A program made the position numbers and the translations under genes. The notes under the pieces were generated by a model that did not search any database, was not told the origin of the DNA, and saw only the letters and a program-made list of their open reading frames with translations. From Pirellula sp. (lineage in GTDB: Bacteria > Planctomycetota > Planctomycetia > Pirellulales > Pirellulaceae), in contig JAJTEK010000006.1 of the NCBI GenBank assembly GCA_021299695.1, forward strand, positions 1 to 60,393: a DNA stretch of 60,393 nt, given 5' to 3'. Shown here piece after piece: positions 41,522 through 45,406 of the stretch; the stretch's first letter is position 1, and the number at the start of each line of letters is the position of its first letter.

Positions 41522-42604
41522 ATGCAGGAGTCATTCACGATCCCGTCGGATTTCGTCGACACGGAGCTCTTTGAAATCCCCAAGGGCTTGCCGGAGGACG
41601 AATTCTCCAAACGGGTTGTTCAGTTATTTCGTGACCAGTTTCGCCAGATGGGGGCCAAGGCCCAGGTGGCTTATGCCCCCCAGGATCGGGCGTATGTGGT
41701 CGATTGGAACAGGCCTGAGGATCTCATGGGGATCATCATCAAGGCTGGGGATCTGTGCAACGAAGGTAAGCCTCGGAAGGGCGCCTGCAGGCTTTGGATC
41801 TTGTTGCTTGTCCCGGAAATGACCGAAGACGAATCGGTGCACGCAGCCTTTGTCTTAGGCGGCGCCCTGAACATGCTCCGGTACTTTGGAGGAGCCATCA
41901 CCATTCTCGAACGTGTGATCCGTAAAAAACCTGACCATCACGAGGCGATGATCGCTTTGGGTTCGGCGGAATTGATGAGGGGCAACCGGCAGATCGGTGA
42001 AGCTTGGCTGCGCAAGGCCTTGTCGTTATCGGCTGAGAACGCGCAAGCGATCCGAAACCTAGGGGTCTGCCTGATGATGCAAAACAGGCATGCCGAGGCG
42101 ATCGTCGAATTCAAACGATGCATCCAACTAACCCCCAACGATGCGGCTTTGTATGTGACGCTCGGGCAATGCTACGAAGTGCTCGGACAGGAGCCCGAAC
42201 AAGCTGTTGCAATGTTTCAAAAAGCGCTAGATCTCGGTGGCCCCGAATCTCTTATGGAGACGGCCCGCAAGTACCAGTACAAGTATGCGGACTTGGAAGT
42301 CCCCTCGGATGAGGATTTTCGAGACGACGTCTACGAAGCCTACCTGGATGCTTTTGTGCGGATGAGAACCATGCCCCAAGAGCAACTCGGAAAGGTCATC
42401 AACGAGATCTACGGGTTGTTGAAGGCCAACGAAAGGCCGACCGATCCGCTCACAACCTACTTCCGGCTTGATTCGATCCAGGAGACGGTCAGTCACATGC
42501 ACATGATTTGCCTGATGAAGGTACTGGTTTTGGAGGTCGCGCCTCAGACGGACATCGGAACGGAATTCAGCCGCGAGTACCATGCAGCCAAAGAGCATCG
42601 CTAG
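41522..42604 (+). CDS. TPR protein of unknown function
   Basis: 360 residues with no signal peptide. Tetratricopeptide repeats lie in the centre, about residues 110-245 (AMIALGSAELMRGNRQIGEA, AQAIRNLGVCLMMQNRHAEA, AALYVTLGQCYEVLGQEPEQ). The N- and C-terminal parts are not recognised. TPRs build a helical scaffold for protein contacts; the partner cannot be inferred. AAGGAG stands 8 bases before the ATG. A REP hairpin follows the stop within 20 bases. Confidence 0.75.
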   Translation: MQESFTIPSDFVDTELFEIPKGLPEDEFSKRVVQLFRDQFRQMGAKAQVAYAPQDRAYVVDWNRPEDLMGIIIKAGDLCNEGKPRKGACRLWILLLVPEMTEDESVHAAFVLGGALNMLRYFGGAITILERVIRKKPDHHEAMIALGSAELMRGNRQIGEAWLRKALSLSAENAQAIRNLGVCLMMQNRHAEAIVEFKRCIQLTPNDAALYVTLGQCYEVLGQEPEQAVAMFQKALDLGGPESLMETARKYQYKYADLEVPSDEDFRDDVYEAYLDAFVRMRTMPQEQLGKVINEIYGLLKANERPTDPLTTYFRLDSIQETVSHMHMICLMKVLVLEVAPQTDIGTEFSREYHAAKEHR

Positions 42605-42605
42605 C

Positions 42606-42665
42606 AACACGCCTTGGGCTTCAGACGGGGCAAGCCCGCCTGGGAGCCCGCCTGGGAGGCTCCTG
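42606..42665 (+). repeat. Single REP element of the 43-45 kb family
   Basis: It repeats ACACGCCTTGGGCTTCAGAC and the hairpin of the tandem arrays, with one arm changed (CCCGCCTG instead of CCCGTCTG). It lies between the TPR gene and the convergent SOUL gene. Confidence 0.85.
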
Positions 42666-42688
42666 AAGCCTCTAGGTCACAGCAATTA

Positions 42689-43300
42689 CTATTTCAAGCG
42701 AATCAGGACTTCGTTGCGGCGAAGTGGGCTTGGTGTGAAGGGTGGATCGTAGCCGGCCGTTTCAACGCCGCTGGAGTCCTGTGCGTCGTCTGCGACCAAG
42801 CCCTTGGACTCCATCCAACTTCGCAGTTTGGTTTCTGCCTCTTTGGCCGCCTTGGCGCTCATCTGGCCGGAAAACCGCACGACCGCAAACCGACCCCCGA
42901 CGCGTTTGCGGACCTCGACTCCTGGGCCGGTGGGCGCGGGTACCTCGGAGTCGGCGATCTCCTTGGGCATCACAAAGCCCATCTGAACAGCCGATTCGCT
43001 CTTGTCATTTTCCATGAAGACAGGGGTCGTCATCGCTATTTTTTTGTCCGATGCGTTGGCGCCGCTGATGTACCGAAACAGCTTCATGAAGCTGCCGTCT
43101 CGGCCCTGCGCATCGAGCTTGGTGCGGGTCGCGACGAGCATCAAGTCGGTGTATTCGCGAACCTCGAACTTTCCGTCCTTTTCGACCACCTTGTACTCGG
43201 CCGACTCATAAGCCCCTCGCGCCATGGTGTTCCAGGCCGCTAAGGCGGTAAAAATCAGCAATCCGGCTGCCGATAGATAGATCATTCGACTGTACTTCAT
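42689..43300 (-). CDS. SOUL haem-binding family protein
   Basis: 203 residues. An N-terminal membrane helix or signal (YLSAAGLLIFTALAAWNTMA) precedes a SOUL domain: EYKVVEKDGKFEVREYTDLM, then FRYISGANASDKKIAMTTPV and RFAVVRFSGQMSAKAAKEAE. SOUL/p22HBP proteins bind haem or tetrapyrroles in eukaryotes; bacterial members are usually membrane-anchored and of unproven role. GGAGG lies about 10 bases before the ATG. Both sides are flanked by REP elements. Confidence 0.9.
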   Translation of the reverse strand: MKYSRMIYLSAAGLLIFTALAAWNTMARGAYESAEYKVVEKDGKFEVREYTDLMLVATRTKLDAQGRDGSFMKLFRYISGANASDKKIAMTTPVFMENDKSESAVQMGFVMPKEIADSEVPAPTGPGVEVRKRVGGRFAVVRFSGQMSAKAAKEAETKLRSWMESKGLVADDAQDSSGVETAGYDPPFTPSPLRRNEVLIRLK

Positions 43301-43365
43301 AGGGAAAACGCCCTCCGGCGATGAGGAATGGACCTTGTATTCTGTGTACTGTATCGCGGAGTCAA

Positions 43366-43740
43366 TCAGCCCGTCTGGGAGCCCGACAGGGTGCGTAGCT
43401 ACACGCCTTGGGCTTCAGACGGGGCAAGCCCGTCTGGGAGCCGTTGCGGGAGCCCGACTGGTGCTAGCTACGCGCCTTGGGCTTCAGACGGGGCAAGCCC
43501 GTCTGGGAGCCGTTGCGGGAGCCCGACTGGTGCTAGCTACACGCCTTGGGCTTCAGACGGGGCAAGCCCGTCTGGGAGCCGTTGCGGGAGCCCGACTGGT
43601 GCGTAGCTACACGCCTTGGGCTTCAGACGGGGCAAGCCCGTCTGGGAGCCGTTCGGGAGCCCGACTGGTGCTAGCTACATGCCTTGGGCTTCAGACGGGA
43701 CAAGCCCGTCTGGGAGCCGTTTGGGCGTTTCTGGGAGCCT
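43366..43740 (+). repeat. Upstream REP array: five tandem units, period ~69 bp
   Basis: REP hairpins lie at 43416-43436, 43485-43505, 43554-43574, 43624-43644 and 43692-43712. Each has stem CAGACGGG/CCCGTCTG around GCAAG, and the last unit has the variant core GACAAG. Spacing is 69, 69, 70 and 68. The rest of the unit contains CTAGCTACACGCC and GGAGCCCGACTGGTG. Frames reading GSPTGASY through it are repeat artefacts. Confidence 0.95.
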
Positions 43741-43806
43741 GACAAACTGTCCAACGACGCTCGAGCGTTACCCTGTCAGGCCATCCAACGAGGTGAGACG
43801 GCCCCC

Positions 43807-43924
43807 GACGGGCTTGCCCCGTCCGGTGCCCACGGTTCAAAGCTAGAGATGTAGCCCCTCCTACCCTCCACTCCTGCCTGACAACCCGACAGGGCATTCA
43901 AGACCCCGACGGGCTTGCCCCGTC
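43807..43924 (-). repeat. Two REP hairpins in inverted orientation before the transposase gene
   Basis: GACGGGCTTGCCCCGTC occurs at 43807-43823 and 43908-43924, the reverse orientation of the array hairpins, with flanking CCC...CGG. Together with the array they form a head-to-head REP arrangement upstream of the transposase. Confidence 0.85.
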
Positions 43925-44010
43925 CGGTGAATCAGGTTCCCAAGCTACAAACCCTCTCCGGCGCTAAAATTCAACGATCTCCAACACCCACTACAAAAAG
44001 GAGCTACCCA

Positions 44011-44889
44011 TTGTCCAACCCGAATTGCTATCACTCTGACTCGACGACGGCCGCTTACTCTCTACGCTGGTCATGGACCGGCTGGCCATCGATCGGCTCG
44101 ATGCCCTCCTTGACCGAAAACGACTGGAGAGAACTTGCGGATGCTTGGGAAAAAGACGGAATCCGATTATTGGAGCGAAACTGCCTGTCCGACTATTGGC
44201 AAGCTACCGTCAGTACGAAACCAGCCACCGACCCTAGCTTCATCGTAGGTCGTATCAAAGGTCGTATCGATCATCGATTCCGTAACCAAAAGATCCCTTT
44301 CAAGTTCTCTCGCAAGGTATCGCTCCGCGCGCTTGGTAACAACACGACTGCCGATGTTCTAGACTACATTCGCCGGCAAGTCGACTCCGCTCAATTCTGT
44401 CGTTCCGACTTCGCAGATAACCTCAAGCAGTTCACTCGCGTTTGGCAGGATGAGAAACTTCACGCACCGATCGAGGTCAGCAGTGGCCGTTATTGGTATC
44501 TGCTTCATCTGGTCCTGGTCGTCGAAGGTAGGCGTCGGATCGGCGACTTCCAGTTTTTGGGGGACCTGTTTGAAATCTGCCAAGCGATCGCGTTGGAACG
44601 TGATTATCTCTTAGGTGGCATTTCGGTAATGCCGGACCATCTTCACATGTGCCTACGTGGCGCACTGGAGGACTCTCCGGAGGCAATTGCGATCGCTTAT
44701 ATGAATGAATCGTGTCGTAAGCTCGGGGTGGTGGGTCTCTGGAGGCCGAGTTACTACGTCGGGACGACTGGAGCTTACAGCATGAATGCGGTACGTGGCC
44801 ACACACCTTTGGCTTCAGACGGGACAAGCCCGTCTGGGAGCCCGTCTGGGAGCCCGACTGGGAACCCGAATGGGAGCCCCAGGTCCTAG
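44011..44889 (+). CDS. REP-associated Y1/HUH transposase (RAYT), probably 3'-truncated
   Basis: 292 residues. Start: TTG at 44011, with AAGGAG (43998-44003) 7 bases before it; the frame extends back to 43915 but that part lies inside a REP. The HUH site is MPDHLHMCL (His210, His212), followed by SPEAIAIAYMNESC and the family segment RPSYYVGTTGAYSMNAVRG. In Y1 enzymes the nucleophilic Tyr lies in the helix right after this segment. Here the sequence turns into HTPLASDGTSPSGSPSGSPT, encoded by a REP unit, and stops. RAYTs cut and join single-stranded REP hairpins. This copy probably lost its tyrosine helix through a REP insertion or deletion. Confidence 0.85.
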   Translation: MSNPNCYHSDSTTAAYSLRWSWTGWPSIGSMPSLTENDWRELADAWEKDGIRLLERNCLSDYWQATVSTKPATDPSFIVGRIKGRIDHRFRNQKIPFKFSRKVSLRALGNNTTADVLDYIRRQVDSAQFCRSDFADNLKQFTRVWQDEKLHAPIEVSSGRYWYLLHLVLVVEGRRRIGDFQFLGDLFEICQAIALERDYLLGGISVMPDHLHMCLRGALEDSPEAIAIAYMNESCRKLGVVGLWRPSYYVGTTGAYSMNAVRGHTPLASDGTSPSGSPSGSPTGNPNGSPRS

Positions 44890-45135
44890 CTGCACGCCTT
44901 GGGCTTCAGACGGGGCAAGCCCGTCTGGGAGCCGTTCGGGAGCCCGACTGGTGCGTAGCTGCACGCCTTGGGCTTCAGACGGGGCAAGCCCGTCTGGGAG
45001 CCCGAGTTCCTAGCTGCACGCCTTGGGCTTCAGACGGGGCAAGCCCGTCTGGGAGCCCGAATGGGAGCCCCAGGTCCTAGCTGCACACCTTTGGCTTCAG
45101 ACGGGACAAGCCCGTCTGGGAGCCCGAATGGCTTA
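44797..45135 (+). repeat. Downstream REP array: five units, irregular spacing
   Basis: Hairpins with the same stem as the upstream array lie at 44816-44836, 44907-44927, 44976-44996, 45031-45051 and 45098-45118; the first and last have the GACAAG core. Intervals are 91, 69, 55 and 67. The first unit is inside the transposase reading frame. The flanking stretch 45136-45371 has no coding character. Confidence 0.95.
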
Positions 45136-45371: not shown

Positions 45372-45406
45372 AAAAAAAGCCGAGGTGACTTGATCACCCC
45401 GGCTTT
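45372..45406 (-). terminator. Intrinsic terminator of the glutathione peroxidase gene
   Basis: Read on the minus strand, AAAGCCGGGGTGA pairs with TCACCTCGGCTTT (one mismatch) around a short loop, followed by a run of seven T. It lies about 40 bases after the gpx stop. Confidence 0.85.

Follow-up and report, generated by a model that had tools for sequence, protein, structure and literature searches.

What kind of element is formed by a transposase gene that sits among hairpin repeats of its own, in tandem on both sides? The locus that raises this question lies at positions 43366 to 45135 of a 60,393-nucleotide stretch of Pirellula sp. DNA (contig JAJTEK010000006.1 of assembly GCA_021299695.1; the whole stretch is called the window here), where a Y1 transposase gene is flanked by repetitive extragenic palindromic (REP) hairpins. 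A first, sequence-only reading had described five hairpins in units of ~69 bp before the gene, five after it, two inverted copies and a solo copy to the left, and all of these were found in place. We interpret the locus as a REP-making element of a distinct kind, in which the transposase TnpA arose by tandem duplication and fusion, carries a split active site and processes REPs, and we give this interpretation a probability of roughly 0.7. The protein probably represents a class of Y1 transposases for which our searches gave no earlier description, a TnpA homodimer that has become one polypeptide with a split site, that drives the hairpin repeats and that sets their unit of ~70 nt. Most surprising, TnpA is a single chain with a split active site throughout the family.

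Two Y1 domains with complementary losses

The fused-dimer Y1 transposase gene occupies 44011..44889 on the + strand and starts with TTG. A program-made list of open reading frames (ORFs) places its start at TTG 43915; alignment with relatives that start with ATG suggests TTG 44011 as the best start, and we used the latter. The natural end lies at ~44796, and the later codons come from the REP array: the last 30 residues and the stop codon are encoded by the downstream REPs, the stop being the TAG at 44887-44889 within the CTAG tag of the second downstream REP (44886..44889, + strand). The claim that this is a transposase of the HUH (histidine-hydrophobic-histidine) Y1 type with its own hairpins, inverted ones nearest the gene, held up, both in the observed orientation and in a match to Pfam Y1_Tnp (1e-14) that fell into two stretches. 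The host genome has one copy of the transposase, the one other, weak match (43367-43465) being a frame through the REPs.

The two stretches correspond to two domains that each keep a different part of the catalytic apparatus. The N-terminal Y1 domain (44053..44394, + strand) keeps the catalytic Tyr (codon 44365-44367) and Gln (44377-44379) and has lost the HUH, and the C-terminal Y1 domain (44455..44796, + strand) keeps the HUH (His codons 44638-44640 and 44644-44646) and ends before the Tyr helix. Counted from TTG 44011, the catalytic residues of the window protein are Tyr119, Gln123, His210 and His212, with DHLH as its HUH; in the family alignment (A3 numbering), the invariant columns are Y117 and Q121 in the N half and H208 and H210 in the C half. 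An explanation as a truncated pseudogene, with the Tyr helix seemingly missing, was dropped when the homologs proved to carry the Tyr in their N half.

A search of 147 related genomes gave transposase matches in 24 of them, at 45 places. Thirty of these places were aligned, the 15 left out including partial matches and a few full-length distant ones, and three aligned loci were dropped (L023 and L025, in-frame stop; L038, truncated), so that 27 homologs were counted. The split was the same throughout: all 27 N halves kept Y[IVL]xxQ and lacked the HUH at its position, and all 27 C halves kept the HUH and ended where the Tyr helix should begin. A stray HTH in the N half of L024 and a YAFDQ in the C half of L021 both fell outside the catalytic alignment positions. 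Two loci found later, L123 and L125, obeyed the same rule, with Tyr/Gln in the N half and HUH in the C half. A distant two-domain member, L126 (G275:C233:54323-54997), has KYIQDW at the C-half Tyr position, that is, a Tyr without the Gln; it looks like a possible evolutionary intermediate, and the loss is therefore not identical in every distant member.

That the N half is itself a Y1 domain was supported by its matches when taken alone. Searched against Pfam, it hit Y1_Tnp at E ≤ 0.001 in 15 of the 27 homologs (the sole family at that cut-off) and at E ≤ 1 in 26 of the 27, with E values of 1.3e-5 for the window member and 1.8e-8 at best. A profile of the N halves matched eight solved transposase sequences of the IS200/IS605 type at 7e-7 to 0.0034 (2ec2, 7e-7; 2f4f, 1.4e-6; ISDra2 and IS608 also among them), and the only other match up to an E value of 1 came at 0.91. 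In these matches, the N-half YxxxQ aligned on Tyr132 of ISDra2, the residue named as mutated in entry 2xo6, and the N half showed no histidines at the HUH position. The C half aligned with canonical TnpAs, HUH included, and stopped short of their KYIExQ helix. When both halves were aligned jointly with 12 canonical TnpAs, they fell in register. In a quick tree (101 columns for 66 rows, with warnings for few columns and for long branches such as L027), the N halves formed one clade and the C halves another, each with a value of 100 in the Shimodaira-Hasegawa-like approximate likelihood ratio test (SH-aLRT), which we take to support a single origin of the fused form and no more.

Between the two closest copies, those of the window and of the sister species G010, the ratio of nonsynonymous to synonymous substitution rates (dN/dS) was 0.20, with 18 synonymous and 12 nonsynonymous changes. 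The ratio was 0.26 in the N half, 0.15 in the C half and 0.07 in the neighbouring SOUL gene; both transposase halves are therefore under constraint, less strict than that on SOUL.

Matches occurred in 52 of 392 genomes of the phylum, with only four matches reaching at least 80 bits (G260, G000, G207 and G275; G000 is the host genome); the rest were partial and presumably represent ordinary single-domain proteins. A scan of genome contigs returned one relative, the 96% identical copy. In viral contigs, 19 loci matched with the C half only and were ordinary TnpAs where translated, and two further profile searches of the viral contigs (A4 and A6) found nothing. At G040:C279:10315-11048, the N and C halves of a homolog are adjacent in different frames, as a frameshifted pseudogene or as two separate chains.

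Two tandem Y1 domains of the IS200/IS605 type with complementary losses are thus well supported by these comparisons. One Tyr/Gln helix and one HUH in different domains allow at most one site per chain, and it would necessarily be an inter-domain site. Such a composite site could bring together domains of one chain or of two. The IS608 dimer has two trans sites. In that protein, the active site is described as assembled in trans between the dimer subunits (PMC5934647, in the text available).

Tandem hairpins on both sides of the gene

The upstream array (43377..43721, + strand) consists of five tandem REP units of ~69 bp, with hairpins at 43416, 43485, 43554, 43624 and 43692, spaced 69, 69, 70 and 68 bp apart; Tandem Repeats Finder (TRF) returned a 69-bp unit in 5.0 copies with a score of 628. 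The downstream array (44801..45131, + strand) also has five REP units, overlaps the 3' end of the transposase gene and is less even, with hairpins at 44816, 44907, 44976, 45031 and 45098 (spacing of 91, 69, 55 and 67). Between the upstream array and the gene, two hairpins lie on the - strand, at 43805-43825 and 43906-43926, both with the second stem type CGGACGGG, and a solo REP (42600..42658, + strand, hairpin 42622-42642) lies further left, between the TPR and SOUL genes, at the place where G010 carries the transposase cassette. The REP at 43464..43505 (+ strand) can serve as an example: it has a CTAG tag (43464-43467), a 17-nt arm and a 21-nt hairpin, and its fold adds an outer 4-bp stem and an asymmetric bulge.

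Of the claim that all hairpins share one stem, the greater part stood. The sequence CAGACGGGNCAAGCCCGTCTG is exact in ten window copies, and the solo copy differs by one mismatch; the inverted pair is of a second type, CGGACGGGGCAAGCCCGTCGG, with two mismatches and the stem arms CGGACGGG..CCCGTCGG. Allowing up to two mismatches, the whole 5.49-Mb draft genome held 13 copies, all within 2.5 kb (42622-45118). The window hairpins are not due to chance, because a reversed control pattern gave 0 matches in the host genome. Since 13 of the 13 copies lie at the locus, the hairpin family is not dispersed in the host genome. Single-strand folds of the window units were only moderately better than those of shuffled sequences (z of about -1.7 to -2.3), and no T-run was present 3' of the hairpin stem in the window sequence.

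Next to the downstream array, the segment 45130-45175 (GCCATCGCCCGCGGTTGGGCGCC) has short matches at ~12 other places in G000 and G010. The segment 45302-45383 matches many places in both genomes, often in arrays ~150 bp apart (for example G000:C214:6508-7256 and C101:31816-32168), and belongs to a second family of dispersed hairpin repeats (CGATTG-TCCC-CAATCG), whose sequence shows no relation to that of the REPs described above.

Shared loop, tag and spacing around the homologs

We scanned for hairpins (stem of at least 8, loop of 3 to 7) within 600 bp of 33 homolog genes, a total of 38,052 bases, and used 56,393 window bases away from the locus as a control; the 33 loci are all 30 returned loci plus L123, L125 and L126. 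A five-base NCRRG loop was present in 132 of 154 hairpins around the homologs and in 0 of 27 control hairpins, and a looser scan (stem 6, loop RCRRG) found 137 around the homologs versus 1 in the control. At least one such hairpin occurred at 22 of the 33 loci. The stems varied, with 31 distinct ones in these 22 loci, and covariation of the stems is partly built in by the picking of hairpins through their pairing; independent of that selection, the loop, a tag and the spacing were common to the 31 distinct stems.

The tag is a TAG located 17 to 21 nt 5' of the hairpin in 63% of 142 hairpins at the 22 loci (4.2% expected); it is mostly [C/G]TAGCT, and one or more tagged hairpins are present at 18 of the 22 loci. 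Orientation was also shared. The nearest upstream hairpin was on the minus strand in 19 of 22 cases and the nearest downstream hairpin on the plus strand in 20 of 24, as in the window, where minus copies are nearest to the gene upstream and plus copies lie downstream. Same-strand neighbours were 64 to 79 bp apart in 60 of 75 cases within 600 bp, and 60 to 80 bp apart in 70 of 115 cases within 1,200 bp (median of those, 70), the latter at 17 of the 33 loci. At least one spacing of 60 to 80 bp was found in 12 of 23 protein clusters at 70% identity. The recurrence of the ~70-bp period across the transposase family bears out the earlier remark that dense ~69-bp arrays are unlike classical bacterial interspersed mosaic elements (BIMEs). 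Sequence comparison thus establishes two Y1 domains with complementary loss, conserved catalytic residues and an association with tagged hairpins.

Dispersal in relatives and change of place

The hairpin had been expected elsewhere in this and related genomes. Outside the locus it is absent from the host genome, as described above, and this is half of what the sequence-only reading had said would refute it; in relatives the expectation was borne out, with the core in 13 of 146 other genomes and dispersed hairpins of the same class in some. Together with the host, 14 of 147 genomes carry the core, and within the genus it is present in 11 of 27 genomes (10 of 26 others). Three of the 13 other genomes lie outside the genus and have a different loop, and these hits may be chance. 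Dispersed copies of a genome's own hairpin numbered 52 in G137, 36 in G035 and 34 in G062. In G062, the gene accounts for 16 of the 34, the other 18 being grouped elsewhere into six triplets of the same sequences; in G076, nine of nine are at the gene, like those of the window. The G062 triplets (C2:543955, C2:922923, C5:365070, C5:381140, C7:212080 and C8:264699) have constant spacings of 67 and 40 bp, resemble REP doublets forming hairpins (REPINs) and have a stem unlike that of the transposase locus.

The cassette occupies different places in two close relatives. The order in the window is TPR gene, solo REP, SOUL gene, REPs, transposase, REPs, and in G010, whose protein is 96% identical, it is TPR, REPs, transposase, REPs, SOUL, three REPs, with orientations unchanged. 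The cassette thus lies on opposite sides of SOUL in G000 and G010, the other site being marked by REPs alone. The arrays themselves may contain assembly errors; absence of the gene from the empty site in the window is safe because that site is spanned by a single REP. No such REP was found in 3.6 kb around SOUL in G001 and G018, whose SOUL is 96% identical and which have no transposase match. Upstream of GSHPx, synteny with G010 ends at window position 45372.

At a second place in G010 (C111, L057), the REPs, the inverted pair and the upstream region are present and the gene is absent. The left flank continues in G000:C174 without REPs; because the right flank is unmatched there, this is a one-sided empty site. 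A third dispersed hairpin family, of the CCCGGGGACAGTCCCCGAG type, occurs at positions 4790-4815 of L057 and in G000:C66; in G010:C111 it adjoins the REP cluster, and G000 contains several short matches to it. In G009 (L058, C13 8470-8960), the upstream region is present in a second, tandem copy, after which comes a transposase gene with an internal deletion.

Relation to known systems

The element shares features with several known systems and departs from each. Y1 transposases have been divided by motif into class 1 (Y---Q), class 2 or REP-associated tyrosine transposases (RAYTs; Y---NP) and class 3 (Y----Q), according to the portion of PMC6006769 at hand. Like the class 1 TnpAs of IS200/IS605 elements (IS608, ISDra2), the protein has the Y1 fold, HUH, Y---Q, a predicted trans site and hairpin-bearing ends, its motifs sitting in different domains. 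Those TnpAs are homodimers of ~150 residues with two sites, each domain having both motifs, and one hairpin per end, whereas here there is one chain with complementary losses, one site and many tandem hairpins, the nearest mostly inverted. IS200/IS605 elements move by excision and insertion of a single strand beside a fixed tetranucleotide; the present cassette differs in place between G000 and G010, by whatever mechanism. The NCBIfam IS200 model gave the window member 46 bits, compared with its curated cut-off of 55.

Like REP/RAYT systems (TnpA-REP, REPtrons), the locus has a single gene with inverted flanking hairpins, repeats that are dispersed in some genomes and a TAG tag on the 5' side. 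In RAYT systems, as far as the text available goes, GTAG directly precedes the palindrome and the RAYT gene is flanked by two inverted REPs (PMC2817692), and GTAG is thought to act as a guide or cleavage site (PMC8266576). They have Y---NP and a single catalytic domain, unlike the Y---Q, two domains and upstream tag found here, and the high-copy dispersed REPs of RAYT hosts are also lacking in this host genome. The family is thus laid out like a REPtron, lacks the motif that defines RAYTs and perhaps works like a RAYT system. Class 3 TnpA-Y1 proteins, which the consulted part of PMC6006769 places in Planctomycetes, Acidobacteria and Proteobacteria, resemble it in the planctomycete host, a class-1-like Tyr/Gln motif and several atypical hairpins, sometimes in high copy. 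The same text gives them a single domain (hidden Markov model [HMM] of 178), Y----Q, NHVH and a hairpin foot CnGA, in contrast to the Y---Q (Y117 to Q121), DHLH and [C/G]TAGC tag of the present family. Several places in G041, G016 and G062 have hairpins of this class in short-spaced inverted pairs or fixed triplets, like REPINs and BIMEs; unlike these, the window and 16 other loci of the 33 have same-strand neighbours 60 to 80 bp apart by the transposase.

Among open-licence full-text literature, no title or abstract start described either a Y1 transposase that is fused or has two domains, or a gene of that kind accompanied by tandem REP arrays. R. baltica is also a planctomycete. It is listed with several REP families and many tyrosine transposases in the text seen of PMC3733652, and that paper is a possible earlier sighting of some of these hairpins. 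In the survey of PMC6006769, as far as its available text tells, a small number of proteins longer than expected were set aside as gene fusions or annotation errors, and fused proteins may have gone undescribed for that reason.

Weighing the explanations

The sequence-only reading had placed the locus with the REPtrons of Pseudomonas and enterobacteria. An ordinary REPtron would be a class 2 RAYT with GTAG-type REPs, as in those groups and Stenotrophomonas. The mostly inverted hairpins nearest to the gene, the dispersed hairpins and close inverted pairs of some relatives and the very existence of a TAG tag all fit it, yet we consider it unlikely: the motif is Y---Q and not Y---NP in all 27 homologs, the chain has two domains with a split site, the tag is ~19 nt away from the hairpin and the host-genome hairpins are found at the locus only. 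The NCBIfam RAYT model reached E ≤ 0.01 in eight of the 27 homologs versus 27 of 27 for the IS200 model, and the RAYT structure 4er8 was the weakest of nine PDB sequence matches (E of 0.11). The label of a classical RAYT for the protein was dropped, being contradicted by Y---Q, the RAYT model scores and the two-domain architecture. A real though lesser possibility is a domesticated protein that binds or nicks hairpins, with arrays that grow by replication slippage and unequal recombination and a cassette that moves by REP recombination. The single complete site per chain, the near-identical tandem REP copies near the gene and the solo REP at the empty site, which resembles a REP x REP deletion product, would all be in keeping with it, whereas the invariance of Tyr, Gln and the two His across all 27 homologs, a similar ~70-bp period in arrays with unrelated stems and copies at many places in G062, G035 and G137 speak against it. 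We regard it as very unlikely that misjoining in the draft produced the arrays or the gene placement. The assemblies are indeed drafts of 229 contigs (G000) and ~250 (G010), and five-unit arrays are longer than a short read, but nothing more than one REP of ~50 bp, with unique sequence on either side, spans the empty site in the window, other assemblies have similar arrays too (on contigs of 996 kb and 2.19 Mb, among others), and the protein architecture is independent of the arrays. The least probable explanation is that the hairpins are transcription terminators or mRNA stability elements of neighbour genes and the transposase is incidental. Several hairpins are intergenic (after TPR, before SOUL), and REPs are reported to affect mRNA in the part of PMC6006769 available; against this, the hairpins of the host genome are confined to the transposase gene, their orientation and spacing track the transposase across many loci and no T-run follows the stem in the window.

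Several observations weigh against our interpretation of a fused, REP-processing TnpA. Arrays could grow by slippage or recombination without an enzyme, and the hairpins are not spread in the host genome. Twelve of the 27 N halves miss Y1_Tnp at E ≤ 0.001, and a direct comparison of the N and C profiles (HHalign) is weak (local E of 0.033), so that the kinship of the two halves rests on each of them matching TnpA. A single-sequence structure prediction had a predicted local distance difference test (pLDDT) score of 36 and gave no reliable model of the N half. A second prediction, from 29 rows (window, L056 and canonical TnpA fragments from viral contigs), is reliable for the C half only (10-residue means of 68 to 89 at residues 161-250), because MAFFT placed every canonical fragment on the C half; Foldseek on this second model finds TnpA and says nothing on the N half. 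Eleven of the 33 loci have no such hairpin within 600 bp, although at four of the 11 a contig end truncates a flank. In G041, a hairpin of the same class is present in 57 copies, with none in 3.76 kb around the homolog of that genome, and those 57 copies are therefore not attributable to the fused protein; as a separate observation, the dispersed hairpins of G041 are often inverted pairs. Finally, the evidence for the change of place comes from two draft assemblies, and homologous recombination between REPs could explain it.

A possible mechanism and its meaning

We read the fused transposase as a REP-processing, mobile, single-chain TnpA, and the following course of events would account for it. 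A Y1 transposase of the IS200/IS605 type (class 1) would have been duplicated in tandem and fused, after which each half would have lost one catalytic element, the N half its HUH and the C half its Tyr/Gln helix. The N-half Tyr/Gln helix would then meet the C-half HUH across the domain interface, like the subunits of the IS608 dimer. We infer both catalysis and array amplification by this protein, as follows. It would bind a folded single-stranded REP, with its 8-bp stem, NCRRG loop, bulge and [C/G]TAGC tag ~19 nt upstream, and with the tag as guide or cleavage site it would cut near the tag through a phosphotyrosine bond at the single composite site. Transfer of the strand beside another REP would give head-to-tail units of roughly constant length, and repeated rounds would build the arrays, their ~70-nt unit being fixed by the enzyme and not by chance. 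Cutting at the flanking REPs, or recombination between them, may relocate the whole cassette.

The E. coli RAYT protein is described as a monomer (PMC6006769, in the text available). A natural single-chain protein with exactly one trans site would set these two features apart, the two trans sites of the IS608 dimer and the monomeric state of that RAYT, and with the fused TnpA one could test what number of sites a hairpin requires for excision, for joining or for nicking alone. It would also be a ready single-chain scaffold for the biochemistry of single-strand transposition, and the recurrent ~70-nt tandem unit would offer a direct handle on the old question of how REP arrays grow.

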